Below are positions 7,784 to 49,145 of a DNA stretch of 64,000 bases, piece after piece. Each line of letters starts with the position of its first letter. Within the stretch, counting starts at the first letter, position 1. The translations under genes and the position numbers were made by a program. The notes below the pieces were generated by a model, which was not told where the DNA came from, made no database searches, and saw only the letters and a list, made by a program, of their open reading frames with translations. The stretch is taken from NCBI RefSeq assembly GCF_000417875.1, contig NW_006920871.1, positions 665,239-729,238 on the forward strand, given 5' to 3'. The stretch comes from Pseudozyma flocculosa PF-1 (lineage: Eukaryota; Basidiomycota; Ustilaginomycetes; Ustilaginales; Ustilaginaceae).

Positions 7784-8389
7784 NNNNNNNNNNNNNNNNN
7801 NNNNNNNNNNNNNNNNNNNNNNNNNNNNNNNNNNNNNNNNNNNNNNNNNNNNNNNNNNNNNNNNNNNNNNNNNNNNNNNNNNNNNNNNNNNNNNNNNNNN
7901 NNNNNNNNNNNNNNNNNNNNNNNNNNNNNNNNNNNNNNNNNNNNNNNNNNNNNNNNNNNNNNNNNNNNNNNNNNNNNNNNNNNNNNNNNNNNNNNNNNNN
8001 NNNNNNNNNNNNNNNNNNNNNNNNNNNNNNNNNNNNNNNNNNNNNNNNNNNNNNNNNNNNNNNNNNNNNNNNNNNNNNNNNNNNNNNNNNNNNNNNNNNN
8101 NNNNNNNNNNNNNNNNNNNNNNNNNNNNNNNNNNNNNNNNNNNNNNNNNNNNNNNNNNNNNNNNNNNNNNNNNNNNNNNNNNNNNNNNNNNNNNNNNNNN
8201 NNNNNNNNNNNNNNNNNNNNNNNNNNNNNNNNNNNNNNNNNNNNNNNNNNNNNNNNNNNNNNNNNNNNNNNNNNNNNNNNNNNNNNNNNNNNNNNNNNNN
8301 NNNNNNNNNNNNNNNNNNNNNNNNNNNNNNNNNNNNNNNNNNNNNNNNNNNNNNNNNNNNNNNNNNNNNNNNNNNNNNNNNNNNNNNNN
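7784..8389. other. Assembly gap (606 N) inside copy B
   Basis: The flanks are GGCTGGCTGG-type repeat on the left and GCAGGAAGGGCCATTTTCTGCGC on the right in two pieces. The same sequences bound the CTGG tract of copy C (about 11810-12350), so the hidden sequence is most likely that GC-rich tract. Confidence 0.8.
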
Positions 8390-11178: not shown

Positions 11179-12631
11179 CATAGCTAGGGGCAGGCTTTTG
11201 GCCTACGATTTTGGAAATCGTAGGTCTTGTACGATATGGCAGTGCCGTAGGAGATCGTTAATCCCCTACGGCACCCAGATGCCGTAGGACCACCTACGGC
11301 ATTTTTGGCCGTAGGCACCCTACGACCTGCTTACCGTAGGCCCTCCCTCGCACCCACAGCCGTATGTATTCTACCGGCATTGTATTGCAAAATCTAGTTA
11401 CACTGGTGTGCGGTGGCACAGCGACAGCATTGGTGGGTGGCAGGGCAAGGAGGCAGGAAGGCAGGTGGTTGCGTGCGGCAACAGGGCAGCAGCAGCGGCG
11501 GCGGCAGAGCGTCAGCAGCAAAGCAAGGGGATGAGGGAGGAGCAGGCAAGTGGAGGGGAGCAAAGGAGTCAGCAACAGCGCGCAGCGGAGCGGCAGAAGA
11601 AGAGCGGCAACAGTCAACTCACCAGAGCGGCAGCAGACCAGCAGGCATCGGCAAGGGCTGTGCACGCAGGCGGAAAGGAGCAGAAGCACGGCAGTCAGTG
11701 GTCTCAATCATCGGAAACGTCGGAGAGGCCCTTCTCCGACGTTTCCGATGATTGACGGCGGCAGCAGGGTGAAAGCAAGCAGTGCGGAGCAGCAGCAGCT
11801 GGCGGCTCACCGGGTGGCTGGCTGGGCCGGCTGGCGGCTGGCTCGGGCAGCTGGCTGGCAGCTGGCTGGCTGGCTGGCTCGGCGGCGGCTGGCTGGCAGC
11901 TGGCTGGCTGGCTGGCTCGGGTACCAGCTGAGCCACACGGCTGGGCTGGGCTGGCGAGCGGCTGGCGGGTGCTGGCTGCCAGGCGGCTGGATTGGGCTGG
12001 CGGGTGGCTGCGCTGGGCGGCAGGCAGAGCTGGCGGCTGGCTGGCTCGGCTGGCTGGCTGACGGCTGCTGGCTGCGCTGACGGCTGCGCTGAACGAGCGG
12101 CTGGCTGGGCCAGGCAGCGGCTGCTGGCCTGAGGGGGCAGGGCCAGGCAACTGCGCCGGGCGGTTGGCTGGTGGCTGGCTCAGGTGGCGGCTGGCGGCTG
12201 GATGGCTGGGCCGAGTGGGTGGGTGGCTGGCGGCTGGCGTCGGGTGGTGGTGGTAGGAGGGCAGGAGATGGGACGGGCGGGTGGATGGATTTGGCAAAGG
12301 GCCGGGTGGCCAGCGCGCGCGCAAGCAGGCCCCTGAGCTGACGTAAGCAGAAAGGGCCATTTTCTGCGCAGGGTAGGGTTGGCCCAGGCTGTGGGGGGCC
12401 CCACGGCCAAAAATGCCGTGGCTGCCCCTCAGAAAATGGCTGTAGGGCCCCCTACGGCCAAAATGCCGTAGCTGCCCCTCAGCAAATGGCCGTAGGTAGC
12501 CCTACAGCCCCGATTTTCTGGCCGTAGGTGGCCCTACGGCCATTTTTAGCGTAGATGACCCCCGATTTCACAATTTCAGGCCGTACGCGAGCCTACGGCC
12601 AAAATCCAGGTGCCCTTTGACGCTAGCTATG
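11179..12631 (+). mobile_element. CATAGCTAG-family element with 3-bp target duplication (copy C, uninterrupted)
   Basis: Left end CATAGCTAGGGGCAGG at 11179, right end GACGCTAGCTATG ending at 12631, with ATG duplicated at 11176-11178 and 12632-12634. At 1,453 bp it is the reference copy of the family. It has a left CCTACGGC-rich part, a conserved 52-bp hairpin (11704-11755), a long GGCTGGCTGG tract (about 11810-12230), and a right subterminal array of about 45-bp units containing CCCTACGGCCAAAATGCCGTA-like inverted pieces (12363-12600). ORFs across it are low-complexity translations of the repeats. Confidence 0.8.
11704..11755. repeat. Conserved 52-bp palindromic hairpin (copy 4, perfect arms)
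   Basis: Arms of 23 bp are perfectly complementary around GGCCCT. Differences from the other copies tend to be matched on the opposite arm. Confidence 0.85.
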
Positions 12632-31289: not shown

Positions 31290-32549
31290 ATGTCGTTCCG
31301 CGGCGGAGGACGCGGCGGAGGCGGAGGAGGAGGTCGAGGCGGTGGCTTTGGTGGCCGAGGCGGCGGAGGCGACCGGGGCTACGGCTCCAGAGGCGGTCGA
31401 GGCGGTGGAAGGGGTGGCTTTGCCAACGCCGGACCTCCAGAGTACGTCCAGCCCATGGGCACCTTTTGCCACGCCGTAGAGGGCGAGATGCTCTGCCAGT
31501 CCACCGACCCCAAGCACGTCCCCTACTTCAACGCGCCCATCTTGTGAGTGGCCGGCGCGCCAACGGCGGCAACATGGCGTCGCTCATGGCGAGCGAGCAG
31601 AGGCTGATCTCTCCTTCACCCTATCAACCCCGTGTCTCAGCCTCGAGAACAAATCCCAGATCGGCAAAGTCGACGAGATTCTCGGTCCGATCAACGAGGT
31701 GTACTTTACCATCAAGATGGACCCCGGCATGGTCGCGACATCCTTCAAGGAGAACGACAAGGTGTACATTAGCGGAGAGAAGCTTCTTCCCATCGAGAGA
31801 TTCCTTCCGAAACCAAAGAGCGTCTTCAAGGGTGAGTCGATGCACGCCGTGGCGGACGGCCTCCTTGGCGCCTGTCCGCTCAAGAAAGCCTACTGGACGG
31901 CTCGAGCTCACATCGTTCCTGTCCTCGCCACCCGTAAAAAAAAACAGCGCCCAAGCGTGGCAAGTCGGGACCAGGCGGCGGCCGCGGAGGGCCAGGCGGT
32001 CGCGGCGGCGCGCGGGGCGGTTTCGGTGGCCGCGGNNNNNNNNNNNNNNNNNNNNNNNNNNNNNNNNNNNNNNNNNNNNNNNNNNNNNNNNNNNNNNNNN
32101 NNNNNNNNNNNNNNNNNNNNNNNNNNNNNNNNNNNNNNNNNNNNNNNNNNNNNNNNNNNNNNNNNNNNNNNNNNNNNNNNNNNNNNNNNNNNNNNNNNNN
32201 NNNNNNNNNNNNNNNNNNNNNNNNNNNNNNNNNNNNNNNNNNNNNNNNNNNNNNNNNNNNNNNNNNNNNNNNNNNNNNNNNNNNNNNNNNNNNNNNNNNN
32301 NNNNNNNNNNNNNNNNNNNNNNNNNNNNNNNNNNNNNNNNNNNNNNNNNNNNNNNNNNNNNNNNNNNNNNNNNNNNNNNNNNNNNNNNNNNNNNNNNNNN
32401 NNNNNNNNNNNNNNNNNNNNNNNNNNNNNNNNNNNNNNNNNNNNNNNNNNNNNNNNNNNNNNNNNNNNNNNNNNNNNNNNNNNNNNNNNNNNNNNNNNNN
32501 NNNNNNNNNNNNNNNNNNNNNNNNNNNNNNNNNCAGAGGCGGTTACTGA
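31290..32549 (+). CDS. GAR1: H/ACA snoRNP protein GAR1 (RGG tail hidden by gap)
   Basis: Exons 31290-31543, 31641-31831 and 31948 onward. The product opens with a Gly/Arg-rich [20 protein letters not shown] segment. The conserved GAR1 core follows: [50 protein letters not shown] and [18 protein letters not shown]. Then comes a C-terminal RGG region ([18 protein letters not shown]). The frame enters the N gap 32036-32533. After it, AGA GGC GGT TAC TGA (32535-32549) reads RGGY-stop, a typical GAR1 end. GAR1 is a core subunit of the H/ACA particles that guide rRNA pseudouridylation in the nucleolus (family knowledge). Confidence 0.92.
32036..32533. other. Assembly gap (498 N) in the GAR1 RGG domain
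   Basis: Both flanks encode Gly/Arg repeats, so the hidden sequence is GGCGGNCG-type repeat. The gap size is probably only an estimate. Confidence 0.85.
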
Positions 32550-41547: not shown

Positions 41548-41772
41548 CCCGACCCCCGGCTAAATTCCCCTTTTTGAGGCGCGGCCATGGTCAGATCGAC
41601 GAGTGGTGAATGCGAGAACAAGGGGTGCGTCTTGGGTTGCGCTTTCTTTTGACCAGTGTACGTACTTCTACGTCGCCATCCCGCAGGAGCGGCCAGAGCC
41701 GAGGTGTCGCTGTGTGTGCTCCCTCTGCAATCTCGACGGGCTGCGAAGGCATCTTCTCGTCCCACCTCCCGC

Positions 41773-44271
41773 TTACTCTTCGTCGACGTCCATGCCCGTG
41801 TCTTCACCTCGCGTTTGCTCATCGGCAGCCTGCTCCTCACCACCAGCCTCCTCTGCACCGCCATCACCGTCGCCAGCCGCCGCTGAAGCGGATGCCGTCG
41901 TCCTGCTACGTCTGGATCGGCGTCCTCCCCCCTCGCCCTCGTCGGCCGCCACGTCGCCCGAATCGCCCGCACCGGCCGCCTCGGCCTGGAGCGCCGCGAG
42001 CTCCTCGTCGCCGTCGATGGACCCGGCATCCTCGTCGTCGGTCCCGTCGTCGTCGCGGCCGCTCTCGTCGTTGCCGCTCTTGCTCCCCGCCTCGTCGTCG
42101 TCGTCGTCATGGTTGTCTCGCGCACCGCCTCGCGTCTGCTCGTCCTCGTCCTCGTTCTCGCCGTCCGCTTCCGCTTCCGCTTCCGCATCCGCATTGGCAT
42201 CTGCGTCGGCATCCGCATCCCGTCGCGCTGCTTGCTGCTGCTGTGCCGCCACGGCCGCCTCCTCGTCGTCGTCCTCGTCGTCGTCTCCAAAGATCCGACG
42301 CGATTCGTCGGCGGCGTCGTCCGCACCGTTGGGCGAGCCCTCGGCCGCCGCATCGGCCGCCTCAACCGGCGCCGCCTCGTGCTCCTCGTCGCCGTCGACG
42401 TCGTCTTCGGCCTCGTCTGCGCTGCTCTCGTACGGGTCGAGCGCGCCCATGTCGTCGACCTGGCTGCGCAGGTGGTAGCGACGCAGCTTCTCGCGCTCCG
42501 TCATGTCGCGGTTCGAGAGCGTAATCACATCCCACTTGCCCGGGTAGCGCCGGTCCTTGTTGCGCAGCTTTTCGTTCTTGGCCACCTGCACGTGATTCGC
42601 GACCGGGTAAAGGATGTCGGAGGTGGACAAGGTAAGTCGAGGCCGTCCTAATCGGCAGACCCTTTCTCGAGCATCGGTGACGAGCTGCCGCCGTCTCGTC
42701 GCACGCGGCTGACTGCAACTTACCCTCGATCGCCACACGCGCAGCGTGAAGCGCATCCCGACCTTGTGGTAGTACGCCTTTGGCTTGGACTTGAACGCCA
42801 GCGTGGCGCCCGTGCCGTCCGGCGCCGCGTCGCGCTCCTTGCCCTTGGTGAGCTCGCTCCTCCGGCTCCGCTTCCGCCTCTCGTGCTCGGCCTGCGGCAC
42901 CGCTGTCGTCTGCACGCCGCCATCCGCCCCGTCCTCGTCGTCGTCGTCGCCGCCAAAGAGGTCGTCGTCATCATCGTCGTCGCCAGCGCCACCAGGACCG
43001 CCGCGGGATCGTTTGGCACCTTTGATCGGATCGATGTCGGCATCCGGATCCTCGTCCGGCACGCCGTCGTCGAGGCTGAGGAGCAGCACGTCGTGCGAGC
43101 TCTCGGCCGTGTCCTTGGGCACGTAGTCGCGGATCCACTTGTAGGCGGTGCCCACCTCGTTGCGCGAGGCGCCCTCGCCCTCGCCATCGCCGTCGGCATC
43201 GGCATCGGCGCCATTGATCTTGGCCGCTGGGAACTTGCCCGTCCGCCTGCGCTTGCGCAGCCGCCTCGACTTTTCGTCCTCGAGCGCAATGTCCTCGAGC
43301 AGCGACATGGGCGCGTCTGGGTCGTCGGGCAGGTCCTCGCCGGTGGGGAGGTAGTAGGAGACGCGCTGCTCGTTGTTGACGGTGACGGGTCGGAGGAGTG
43401 CGACGTCGAGGCGCGGGTCGACGATGGGCACGCCGTTGACGATGCGGCCGGGCGGGTCGATGAAGCGGACAACGTGGTAGTCGGTGGCCCAGGTGTCGGG
43501 GTCGGGCAGCAGCTCGAACGACGAGACAGCCGTGACGCCGCGCTTGGTCGGGTGCACGAGGCGGTCGAGGGGCTTTTGGGCGTCGCGGAACGACTGCTGG
43601 ATCTTGTTGACCTGTGCCTCGCGCGAGGTGTTGACGGCCTCGACGTGGCGGGGCTTCTGGACGGCCTGCTGGGCGCGTTTCTGCTCGGCGGAGAGGTACT
43701 CTGTGCGCCTTAGCCAGGTGACGTCGTCTGCGGCGAGCGTCGTCTTGGCGTTGGGCCCGATGGCCGAGGCGTGGCGTTGTTGGAGGGCGGCGGCGAGGGT
43801 GGCTGCCGAGGCGGGGTCGTCGGATGCGTGGAGCGAGGTGACGATGCCGATGGCGCCATTGGGGGCGGCGGTGCCGGCGGCGGGGAGCGCCGAGGCAAAG
43901 TCCTGGAGGAGGAAGGCGTCTGCGTCGTCGAGCGAGTCCTGGTCGAGCCTGTCTGTGGGTGCGACCGAGACTTCGGAGAGGTCGCCCTCCCAGAGGTCCT
44001 GGAAGCGCGCGAGGTCGATGGGCATGCCGGCATGGGCGTCGACGAGGACGGGGAGCGGGTGGGCCGAGGCGAGGCGGTCGGCAAAGTGCGGGTTGGCGTA
44101 GCGCGCCGGGTCAGTTGCGACCTTGACGAGCTTGGGGGCGTAGGGCGGGAGCGGGATGGGGTTGGGGTAGCGTACGCGGTCGATGAGCTCGCGCTTGCGC
44201 GACGACGACGACGACGACGAGGTCGAGGTCGACGAGGCGGCGATGCCTCTGGAGCCCGACGACGACGACAT
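41773..44271 (-). CDS. PAF1: PAF1-like subunit of the RNA polymerase II-associated PAF complex
   Basis: Exons 44271-42724 and 42585-41773 give 786 residues. The intron (GTAAGT ... GCAG) is in frame and easily missed as coding sequence. After a Ser run comes RKRELIDRVRYPNPIPLPPY and APKLVKVATDPARY, the conserved N-terminal PAF1 signature. The homology continues through RPVTVNNEQRVSYYLP and the exon-spanning MRFTLRVWRSRVAKNEKLRN region. The C-terminal third is extremely Asp/Glu/Ser-rich and ends MDVDEE. PAF1 acts with CTR9, LEO1, CDC73 and RTF1 in transcription elongation and histone modification (family knowledge). Its last 60 bp recur as an assembly artefact at 48298-48357. Confidence 0.85.
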   Translation of the reverse strand: MSSSSGSRGIAASSTSTSSSSSSSRKRELIDRVRYPNPIPLPPYAPKLVKVATDPARYANPHFADRLASAHPLPVLVDAHAGMPIDLARFQDLWEGDLSEVSVAPTDRLDQDSLDDADAFLLQDFASALPAAGTAAPNGAIGIVTSLHASDDPASAATLAAALQQRHASAIGPNAKTTLAADDVTWLRRTEYLSAEQKRAQQAVQKPRHVEAVNTSREAQVNKIQQSFRDAQKPLDRLVHPTKRGVTAVSSFELLPDPDTWATDYHVVRFIDPPGRIVNGVPIVDPRLDVALLRPVTVNNEQRVSYYLPTGEDLPDDPDAPMSLLEDIALEDEKSRRLRKRRRTGKFPAAKINGADADADGDGEGEGASRNEVGTAYKWIRDYVPKDTAESSHDVLLLSLDDGVPDEDPDADIDPIKGAKRSRGGPGGAGDDDDDDDLFGGDDDDEDGADGGVQTTAVPQAEHERRKRSRRSELTKGKERDAAPDGTGATLAFKSKPKAYYHKVGMRFTLRVWRSRVSCSQPRATRRRQLVTDARERVCRLGRPRLTLSTSDILYPVANHVQVAKNEKLRNKDRRYPGKWDVITLSNRDMTEREKLRRYHLRSQVDDMGALDPYESSADEAEDDVDGDEEHEAAPVEAADAAAEGSPNGADDAADESRRIFGDDDEDDDEEAAVAAQQQQAARRDADADADANADAEAEAEADGENEDEDEQTRGGARDNHDDDDDEAGSKSGNDESGRDDDGTDDEDAGSIDGDEELAALQAEAAGAGDSGDVAADEGEGGGRRSRRSRTTASASAAAGDGDGGAEEAGGEEQAADEQTRGEDTGMDVDEE

Positions 44272-45448
44272 GGCGTGGTGGCAGCCGCGGGGTCGCGCGG
44301 TCGAGACGGGGGGGTCGAGGGAGGGGTAGGAGAGTGTGCGGGCGTAGGGCTGTGACGCTGGTTGGTGTGCCAGGTGGAAGCTGGTGGTGGTGGTGGCGGA
44401 CGGGGTTGGCGCGTTGCGAAGATTGGTTGGTTGGTCTTGTTGGGCTGGGCTGGGCTGGGCTGGGCTGGGCTGGTGGCCGATGCCGGCGTGGAAAGATGTC
44501 CGAGGCACGGCTGGGCTGCGTGGTTCGGATCCGAGCTTGCAAAGATGCGGTGGGGTGCTCGCTTGCAGCCCGCTGAGGTTTTTTGCTCCACACGCGATGT
44601 CAAAAGGAGGCCTGTGGCCTGCAGGCCCACGGACCTGTCGACGGCTCAGGGCAGCCTGAGCAGGGGGGGGGGGGGATTATTGGCCTCAAGGTGCAGGGGA
44701 GGCCGCCGTCGGTCAGTCGGATCGCGTCCGCCCCCTTGGCCTTGGCTCGAGGGATGGCCTGTGTGTTGGCTGCCAGACGGGGCAGAGCTAGGTGCAGCCT
44801 GGCCGCCGTTTTTTGAAAGTGGGTGGGGGCCACCCGCCGCCGCCGCCGTTGCAGCCGCCACCACCCACCATCACCACCATCTCGACCCCACACACCAACC
44901 ACAAGCAGCTAGTGACCATACGGCAGCCGCCGCCGCACTTCGTCTCTCTCTCTGAGCAAGCACCCCTTGCTGCCCTCCTCGCTCTTCCCCGCGCCAAACT
45001 ACCGCCACAGACACACAGCCACCCGCCGCGGACCTGCCCACCATCTCCCTCCCCTCCTCGCGCCCATCACCACACTGCCCCTGCTTCCTTGCCTCCGTCC
45101 ATCCCTCGGAGAGCATCCCATCGGCCTGATGCCTGTCGCACGTCGCGATCGACTCCGACACACGCGACCCCCCTCGAGGCGGATCTGAGCAAGTCCACCC
45201 CTCCCCCTTGCCCTTACCCAAGCCCTTTCGCTTTATCCCTACCCCACCTCACCTAGACAAGCCGCTCGTACTACCCCCTCGTCGCACAGGATCCGCTAGA
45301 GCTCACAGAGCAGTCTGTCCTCTTTCCTCTTGATCTCTGTCTTTGCGCCACCTTACGCCGCCCCTTGGCCCGCCGGCCCACCCGCCACCAGTCCGACCTT
45401 GGCATCCCTCCTCCTCTGTCATCAATCGGTGCCCGCCCCGCACCCACC
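44272..45448. other. Divergent promoter/5' leader region
   Basis: Between PAF1 and the CUE/CCCH/Smr gene. Contains a GGGCT tandem (about 44445-44470), a 14-base G run (44661-44674), and a long pyrimidine-rich leader (about 44975-45445) leading to the ATG at 45449. No gene seen. Confidence 0.6.
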
Positions 45449-48400
45449 ATGGCTGGCCCAATGACAACCGCTGCCTCGTACAACTCTGGCCATGCAAAGG
45501 CGCTGCTCGAATCCCTCCTCGTCAGCGGCACCACGCCTTCGTCGGCCACTCACAGCACCGCCAGCAGCAGCAGCCATACCACCAGCAACAACAACAACAG
45601 CAACAACAACGGTGGCGGCGGTAGCGCCCGATCCACCTCGCTCACCACCAGCAGCGCCGCACCCTCATCGTCCTCGGTCTCGATCTTGCCTAACCCCCTC
45701 TCGTCGTCGGCCGCATCGTCGTCCAACACGAGCGCTAGCGTAAACGGTCAGCTGCACCTCACGCCCACCTTTCGCCCGCATAAGCCCTCGTCGCTCTCGT
45801 CCTCGGCGTCCGCGTCGGCTTCGGAAGAGGACAGCGGCGGCCGCGCCGCTCGCCGTGCCCTCGATGGAAACGCAGGCGCCGCTTACGGTGTCGACGGCGA
45901 CGACGACCAGGACGACGACGACGATGAAGGCGACGACGACAGCGAGATGGCCACCTCGCCCCCCTTTTCAGCCTCGTTCAAGGCGGCGCAGCTATCGATG
46001 CAGGCGCTCCACAATCACCATCGAGCACCCCCCGCCGCCGCCGCCGCCGCTGCCGCCATCGCACCGTCCGCCCCGATGTCGCATGGACCCACGCCCCAGG
46101 CCCAGGTCGCCGAGATCCTCGCGCTGCTCAACGACACTCGCCTCGACGAAGAGGAGCGCATCGACCGCGTCCGCTCCGCGCTCACCACGTCCCTCTTTAG
46201 CAGGGAGGGCGTCGTCTCGACCCCCTCCCGCCTCGACAGCCTCGTCCTCGAGCTCCTCCACCGCCACCGCGAGGATGTCAACCCGACCGGCGCCTCGTTT
46301 GCCCCGCCGCTGTCGGCAGCATCGCCCGCCCGAAGGCCGGCCAGCATCCGTTCGTTTTCATCCTCGAGGCCCTGGACGCCCTCGAAGCCATCGTTCGTCT
46401 CGACCCACTCTAACCCCGGCCCACCAGGCTTCGAGGGCGGCATGAGCAGCAGCACCAGCAGCAGCGGCGCCGGCTTCCCGCACCAGGCCACCTCGCCCCT
46501 CATGACGAGCGTCGGCATCCCCCCACCGACCGCGCTTTCGGCTTCTGGCAGCCCCAAGCCGCACCCTGGCGTCATCGGCTCCGGTTCGCCGCGCGCCTCT
46601 CCTCGGCCCTGGAATCGGACCCTCTCCAACCTGTCGACCACGAGCGTGTCGTCGTCGCTCGGCGGCGAGACCAGCGTCGGCTCGCCCATCTCGTCGGTCC
46701 CGCCTGGCCTCAGCGCCGCTAGCACCAGCCGCCCGGCCTCGCCGTCGCCGTTTGGCTCGCCGCGCCTAAACGTGGCCGCCACCGAGTTCCGGCCCAAGGG
46801 GACGCCCACCGCCAGCTTCGGCTCGGGCGCGGCTCTGACGCCAACGCGGCCAGCGCCCTGGCTGACGCGGCGGCCCAGCTCCAACGCCAGCAGCACTAAT
46901 CTCGCGCTGGCCAACAAGAGCCACGCCGGCGCCGGTGACGACGACGACGACGAGTTTTCGCCATTCGGCTCCACCAAGCCGGTACCGTGGTCCTCGTCGC
47001 AGGCCCAATACGGCGTTGCGGACACCGGTGATAGCAACTGGTACAGCAGCGGCGCCAGCACGACGTCGTCCAACGGCGGCTGGGAGCCCGGGCCCGGGAC
47101 TGTGCCCGCGTCAACGACCGGCAGCGGCGGCGGCGGCGGTTTCGCCCGCTCTGGCGTGCCTGGACACCCGGAAGGTGACGACGAGGCGGCCGGTTTTGGC
47201 GCCGCTGGCATGACACCCTTCGACCTGCTCTACTCGATCCTCGTCACCGGAACCAAGCATGGCATGGCCGAGTGGAGTCCGGAGCAGGTCGACGAAGCGC
47301 TCATGGCCAACGGCTACGACTTTGAGAGGACGCTCGCCGCCATTTCCGAGAATGGCGGCAAGCCCCTCGGAGACGGCTCGCAGTCGATCCTGTCGGGCCC
47401 ACTCCGGGCCCGGCGGGCAGGCCAAGCCGTGGGCCCCGCCGCCGGCTCACCCCGAGTCGAGCATGCCACCGGCGCCCCTGGTGCTGCTGCTGCTGGGCCG
47501 GCCGCCGTGACGCCAAACATTCGCGCCGGCGTCAACGTCCTGACCCGCGAGGCGTTCTCGTCGATGCACCGGAATGGCAGCGGCTTTGGCGCTAGTGCCG
47601 CGAGATTCGGCGCAGCTGCTCGAGGACTCAGCGCGAGCCCCGCAGCGGCGTCTGCATCGTCACCGAGGAGCCCTGGCCTGGCGCCCGCAGGTCTCGCAGG
47701 TGCTCTGCACGGCGCCAAGGTCTGTCGCTACTTTATCGCTGGCGAGTGCCGCCGTAGCGACTGCAAGTTCTCCCACGACCTCGGTCGCGCCGTCTGCCGC
47801 TACTGGCTCAAGGGACAGTGCGCGCACAACCCGTGCAACTTCCTGCACGACTACGACGCGCTCAACGCGCTCGCCGTTGGCATCACCGGGGTCCAGGTCG
47901 ATCCGTCCGCCGCCGAGGGCGGTGCTGCGGCTCCGGATCAGGCGCCGCAGAGCAAGCCGGCCAACGACGACTTTCCCGAGCTCGGCTTGGGTGCGGCTGC
48001 AGGCGGGGCCAAGGCGGCCGCCTCCCGCGGCCGGTGGTCGGCAGCGCTGCAGCGGAGCAACAACCCGAACCCGCTCACCCTCGCGCAAAAGGAGGGCCAA
48101 GGCGTCATCCACCTGCACGGTCGGGGCAACCTTGCCAGGCCTGCTGCCGACGCGGGCGGGAGCGGGCGCCGGCTCACAGAGGGCCAACAGCTCGGGCGGA
48201 GGCCCGCGGGGATCTGCGCGCGTGGCGCTGCGTGCACCGCTGCTGCTGCCCAGATTGTCGTATAACTTCGATAATGTATGCTATCGAAGTTATTACGCTT
48301 ACTCTTCGTCGACGTCCATGCCCGTGTCTTCACCTCGCGTTTGCTCATCGGCAGCCTNNNNNNNNNNNNNNNNNNNNNNNNNNNNNNNNNNNNNNNNNNN

Positions 48401-49145
48401 NNNNNNNNNNNNNNNNNNNNNNNNNNNNNNNNNNNGTGCACCGCTGCTGCTGCCCACGATTGCTACGGGAAAGCAGGCCGCCCTGTCGTACGCCACGCAC
48501 CGGGGCGACTCGCTGGCGCTGGCCGAGCAGCGCAACAAGCTGCTGGCGCGCGCCTCGGACGCGTTCAGGCGCGGCGACTTTGCGGCGGCCAAGAAGTGGA
48601 GCCGCGAGGCGGCCGAGATGAACGAGCGCTTCCAGGACCAGTCTCGCGGTGCGGCCCGCGACATCCTGCGCGAGCGGATGAATGCGCTGCGCACCCGGCT
48701 CACCGACCCCGTCGAGGCCGGCCCGAGCGTCACGGCCAACCAGAGCGACGAGCCGGGTGCGCGCGGCATGCGGGGCAAGGTCGTGGGCAACGGCCTCGGC
48801 GTCTGCCTCGGCGTGGTGAAGCCGGCCGCGCTGCAGGCGTCGATGCCCTCGGCGATGGCGTCCCACCTTTCGGTCGACGAGCGGACCGAGTGCTTCCTCG
48901 ACCTCCACGGCCTGCACTCGCAGGAGGCGGTCGAGCTGGTAGAAGAGTTCCTGCTCGGGCTCGAGTCCGAGGGACTGCAGGGGCTCGCCTACCTCGCCAT
49001 CGGCCGCGAGAGGCACAGCAGCAAGGAGACCGACAAGCGTCGCGTCAAGGTGGCCGGCTTTGTCAAGCAATTCCTCAGCGGCTACAGCTATCCCTTTGCC
49101 GAGTGGGACGGCGTCCTCGTCGTCGACCACTGCACTCACGTCTAG
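45449..49145 (+). CDS. CUE-like / CCCH zinc-finger / DUF1771-Smr protein, broken by an assembly artefact
   Basis: The first part reads from ATG 45449 in one frame. A long Ser/Pro-rich N-terminus is followed by a CUE/UBA-like helix bundle (about 591-632, WSPEQVDEALMANGYDFERT) and two CCCH fingers (about 757-803: CRYFIAGECRRSDCKFSH, CRYWLKGQCAHNPCNFLH). The second part (48436-49145) encodes a DUF1771 helix pair (GDSLALAEQRNKLLARASDA) and an Smr domain (LDLHGLHSQEAVELVEEFL) up to the stop. Between them lie a sequencing linker, a foreign 60-bp piece and 78 N; the naive frame stops at 48265. After removing them, one frame step remains between about 48100 and 48230, probably base-call errors. Fungal relatives are linked to RNA binding and no-go decay; the Smr domain may be a nuclease (inference). 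Confidence 0.85.
48258..48297. other. Untrimmed loxP-type mate-pair linker (sequencing artefact)
   Basis: Contains ATAACTTCG, the loxP spacer ATGTATGC and CGAAGTTAT as an inverted repeat. It is bordered by TCGT on the left and TACG on the right, as in the 454 Titanium paired-end linker. Compared with that linker as I remember it, one T and one A are missing (40 instead of 42 bp). Confidence 0.92.
48298..48357. other. Misplaced 60-bp copy of the PAF1 3' end
   Basis: Identical to 41772-41831, in the same orientation, directly after the linker and directly before the N run. It is the mate half of a chimeric read, not a genomic duplication. Confidence 0.92.
48358..48435. other. Spurious assembly gap (78 N)
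   Basis: The sequence after the gap (48436-48456) repeats 48232-48252 base for base, so the two contigs actually overlap and no sequence is missing. Confidence 0.88.

Follow-up and report, generated by a model that had tools for sequence, protein, structure and literature searches.

The window, by which we mean the whole 64-kb stretch of DNA analysed here, carries on its minus strand an open reading frame that holds the gene for Paf1 (Pfam PF03985). All 786 residues of the protein PFL1_01347 from Pseudozyma flocculosa PF-1 are matched by the translated frame without a mismatch; the alignment has 46 gap positions, which a retained intron would produce. The match, to one protein, bears out the description of the DNA as a fungal scaffold in an earlier sequence-only reading, P. 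flocculosa being a member of the Ustilaginaceae in the Basidiomycota. On the plus strand lies a gene for a CCCH zinc-finger/DUF1771 protein, which is split by a lox-like linker, a short copied tag and an assembly gap. The two tRNA genes of the window, at 11863 and 55109, are far from the linker, and no Rfam family matched within the window at gathering scores. The features that concern us are as follows.

41772..41831, plus strand: site to which the mate tag belongs; left end of the implied circularised fragment, antisense to the last Paf1 codons
41773..44508, minus strand: open reading frame holding the Paf1 gene
46955..49145, plus strand: CCCH zinc-finger/DUF1771 protein gene, its extent taken from homology and the last stop, with no gene model
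48232..48257, plus strand: left contig end; overlaps the right contig start at 26 of 27 positions, one base being missing in the left copy
48258..48297, plus strand: synthetic Roche/454 paired-end (Cre-lox) linker, 40 of 42 nt, each lox arm minus one base
48298..48357, plus strand: misplaced mate tag, from the opposite end of the sheared fragment; identical to 41772..41831
48358..48435, no strand: false gap of 78 N between overlapping contigs
48436..48462, plus strand: right contig start, with the second copy of the overlap

The interrupted gene

Pfam places the CCCH fingers to the left of the junction and DUF1771 to its right. Three homologues (P0037, P0041 and P0042), chosen out of 22, were compared with the sequence as assembled and with a collapsed sequence from which linker, tag, gap and one copy of the overlap are gone. 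On the collapsed sequence their alignments cross the junction in one frame, although the change of frame further left leaves only about eight clearly conserved residues to its left that are in frame with the right half. On the assembled sequence the matches of all three in the junction frame begin past the gap, and P0041 gives one separate weak piece that ends at the linker. Read in the frame of the second half, 47574-49145 is one open reading frame that no stop interrupts in the linker, the tag or the Ns, so that a gene caller could take in the artificial stretch.

The CCCH half and the DUF1771 half are in different frames, and the change falls at 48120-48215, to the left of the junction and near the left contig end. 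An intron could account for it, and so could a base error where coverage thins out towards the contig end.

Linker, copied tag and contig overlap

Alignment of 48258-48297 with the 42-nt Roche circularisation linker gives no substitutions, no insertions and two single-base deletions, one in each arm. The loxP spacer ATGTATGC is present, together with the TCGT/TACG borders that the sequence-only reading had pointed out, and the synthetic TCG...CG borders stand outside the lox core. The two deletions occupy mirror positions, and a perfect 12-bp inverted repeat remains. No linker-like stretch within eight edits was found in five mononucleotide shuffles of the window, read on one strand. The 42-nt linker and its reverse complement are printed in PMC5199103 in the list of screened adaptors, the mate-pair libraries of that study having been made with Roche circularisation adaptors and Cre, and PMC3253782 and PMC3532085 set out the Cre-loxP procedure, in which the linker marks the junction. 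The sequence at 48258-48297 shares with the linker as printed in PMC5199103 the spacer, both arms and the TCG and CG borders, and differs from it in lacking one base in each arm; like that linker, it joins two ends of one fragment. It had been described as lying between a genomic end and an N gap. Both are there, but 60 bases (48298-48357) separate the linker from the gap.

If the sequence is a linker, then the other end of one sheared fragment is to be expected beyond it, on the same strand and an insert length away; a natural lox site makes no such prediction. The 60 bases that follow the linker are identical at 60 of 60 positions to 41772-41831, on the same strand and 6.5 kb upstream, and a search of the whole assembly for this tag found these two places, a count that is a lower bound. 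The implied fragment, 41772..48257, measures 6,486 bp in assembly coordinates. The observed order, with the right end of the fragment followed by the linker and then by the left end, is the order that circularising it would produce.

The left contig ends in GTGCACCGCTGCTGCTGCCCAGATTG at 48257, the last base before the linker, and the right contig begins with GTGCACCGCTGCTGCTGCCCACGATTG at 48436. The 21-mer previously noticed to be identical at 48232-48252 and 48436-48456 is indeed so, and the identity extends to 26 of 27 positions, reaching the edge of the linker. Since the contig ends overlap, the 78 N stand for no true gap, and the assembly is too long by the 204 bases that collapsing the overlap removes. 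The suggestion that the gap separates overlapping contigs is therefore supported both by the overlap and by the three homologues that align across the collapsed junction. Of the three N runs in the window, the other two (7784-8389 and 32036-32533) have no linker, and their 100-base flanks show no convincing overlap.

Remnants in this and other assemblies

The sequence-only reading had proposed that the whole assembly be searched with the linker sequence. We searched its 23,045,585 bases, in 33 contigs, with three exact or near-exact linker patterns, and obtained 12 rows that represent nine distinct places: two on contig C3 and one each on C4, C6, C7, C9, C21, C23 and C27. Reversed-pattern controls gave no matches in the whole assembly. 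Because copies with errors in both halves escape the patterns, there are at least nine remnants, a result that favours an artefact. With the linker spans set by hand, all nine have an N run at a distance of 0 to 60 nt. The eight further remnants (C4:31019, C6:514491, C7:239253, C9:243884, C21:522707, C23:31556, C27:189369 and C3:348430) are each within 47 bases of one; the linker thus recurs at contig ends of the same assembly. No perfect 42-mer is left in the assembly. At four of the nine places the gap truncates the linker to 25 or 26 nt. A comparison of the five long remnants by eye shows errors of several kinds: two deletions in the copy at 48258-48297 and in that on C7, an insertion on C9, a substitution and a lost end on C4, and an N on C21.

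Tags of at least 19 bases are kept by four of the nine remnants, the other five keeping at most two bases and hence no usable tag. For all four usable tags the mate was found where side and strand had been predicted, at distances of 3.4-6.5 kb, so that every testable linker is flanked by the ends of a single fragment, an insert length apart on the same strand. For C21 the mate lies 4.1 kb upstream, at 518560 on the same strand, and is identical to the tag at 19 of 19 positions. The tags on C7 and C9 found no second place by patterns allowing up to three mismatches, and their mates needed gapped alignment. The 47-nt C7 tag has its mate at 235834, 3.4 kb upstream on the same strand (41 alignment columns, 95.1%). 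The C9 tag aligns over its whole 47 nt in 49 columns (95.9%) with a mate that ends at 249821, 5.9 kb downstream on the same strand; since this tag stands to the left of its linker, downstream is the predicted side. The geometry of the mate tags and the recurrence of the linker at N runs together support the earlier proposal of a synthetic mate-pair linker and no natural recombination site.

Overlapping contig ends are found likewise at C6, where they agree at 28 of 28 positions across a 20-N gap. At five of the seven gaps tested (C27, C21, C7, C9 and the second place on C3) a convincing overlap was absent, and a false gap is accordingly shown only at 48358-48435 and at C6.

The same linker occurs in other public assemblies. 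A search pattern with two places of variable length (40 to 46 nt in total) identified four IMG/VR and 109 GTDB stretches, with ten organisms named among the latter. In the loci retrieved from IMG/VR and GTDB, each of the 143 matches to the pattern is exactly the 42-mer, the pattern letting only two places vary in length. The linkers of these assemblies are perfect largely owing to the pattern, whereas the P. flocculosa assembly keeps no perfect copy. The 109 GTDB stretches hold 138 intact linkers, and for 35 of these an exact second copy of a flanking 30-mer is present elsewhere in the stretch. In a count of direction made by hand, eight of these 35 rows, from the tandem linker arrays L023 and L048, were dropped. 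Among the 27 left, 26 agree wholly with the direction that circularisation predicts, the copy of a right flank lying upstream or that of a left flank downstream, on the same strand; one, L042, is mixed. The distances between flank and copy range from about 0.1 to 7.4 kb; as the GTDB stretches are at most 8 kb long, many mates are out of view. An N run is found within 200 bases of 63 of the 138 linkers, contig ends being left out of this count.

Several individual records may be mentioned in their own right. In Litoribacter populi, scaffolds 5 and 4 (L023 194-622 and L048 147-557) each have an unusual array of four intact linkers in a row near the scaffold start, spaced at 129 and 123 bases, respectively. 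A Nonomuraea record (NZ_LT559118.1, H1) has the full 42-nt linker at eight places, and four E. coli records (H30-H33), two of them of K-12 GM4792, also contain it in full. The record of Lactococcus phage Q33, titled as a complete genome, carries the linker up to base 41 of 42 (JX564242.1 17544-17584; L147 1501-1541), and the last eight bases of its annotated portal gene fall within this copy; this copy is probably the same artefact.

Origin of the lox-like sequence

From the linker match, the duplicated tag and its geometry, the overlap and the recurrence in the assembly, all of which are observed, we consider it nearly certain that the lox-like sequence is a remnant of a paired-end linker that came with a misplaced tag and a false gap through the course of reading, trimming and assembly proposed here. 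Judged by its sequence, it is an assembly artefact of a well-known kind. A paired-end library would have been made with Roche/454 Cre-lox circularisation adaptors and most likely read on a 454 machine; 454 reads were presumably used for the P. flocculosa assembly. In such a library the DNA would be sheared and ligated to adaptors bearing loxP, Cre would close the fragments into circles, and the circles would be broken and their junctions sequenced. One read would have run from the right end of the fragment (to 48257) through the linker into the left end at 41772-41831, which is seen again at 48298-48357. Short of two bases in the read or in the consensus, the linker would have been missed by trimming and would have remained attached where the left contig ends. 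This chimeric tail would then have masked the overlap of 26-27 bases, and the assembly software would have placed 78 N between contigs that truly overlap.

Trimming would on this account have taken the intact linkers and missed the damaged ones, which would explain the odd 40-nt form without any special biology. What counts against the account is that deletions at mirror positions are rarely expected from independent errors; because the errors of the other long remnants, compared by eye, sit elsewhere, we read the mirror symmetry as coincidence.

The same artefact may have arisen on another machine, from a Roche adaptor library of Cre-lox mate pairs that was read on Illumina and not on 454. 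Illumina reading would leave the same linker, and PMC5199103 and PMC3507753 describe Roche circularisation adaptors combined with Illumina reads. The single-base indels in three of the five long remnants (L115, L123 and L124, by eye) nevertheless suit 454 chemistry better, and we regard this variant as improbable. The literature searched yielded no description of the sequencing behind the P. flocculosa assembly; PMC5897528 cites Lefebvre et al. 2013 for PF-1.

A loxP scar left in an engineered strain after marker removal is a possible laboratory origin of a lox site in a fungus, but it has next to no probability here and was rejected, since at least nine remnants at nine places all lie at assembly gaps, which truncate four of them to 25 or 26 nt, and a scar brings no copy from 6.5 kb away in the geometry of fragment ends.

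Equally remote is a natural lox-type site in the genome, be it phage P1 loxP or a fungal relative. The spacer and arms at 48258-48297 are the same as those of P1 loxP, from which the linker was designed; positions 4-38 of the 40-mer are matched by sites that P1 and P7 records annotate as lox, and the perfect inverted repeat fits a lox-type site. The synthetic borders are, however, present as well. Among the best 15 of 690 matching records, four E. coli records cover all 42 positions and 11 cover positions 4-40, and for plasmids, again for the best 15 of 690, one covers all 42 and 14 cover 4-40. The sites in phage, plasmid and E. coli records mostly come without the full borders; the sequence at 48258-48297 has the borders and is one base short in each arm. 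An intact 34-bp loxP site, as a P1-type site would have, gave no match with up to three mismatches, one base being missing from each arm. Nor was a Cre-like recombinase found, a search of the genome for PF00589 in six frames without intron modelling giving no match; the control search with PF00589 was positive in 14 of 14 genomes, all of them prokaryotic. The borders, the mate-tag geometry, which speaks against a natural site, and the lack of a PF00589 match are the grounds on which natural loxP was rejected.

The combined test of linker, tag and mate is applicable to other assemblies. We would give even chances to the wider proposition that damaged paired-end linkers are a systematic and underestimated source of false gaps and short false duplications in public assemblies. 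On that view, copies with an error at one or two bases would slip past trimming and so collect at contig ends, where each could be recognised, and its true fragment recovered, from the mate tag alone, without the reads. For P. flocculosa, the CCCH/DUF1771 gene model at this locus is to be regarded as unreliable, and recognising the linker keeps a lox site from being wrongly reported for a fungus.
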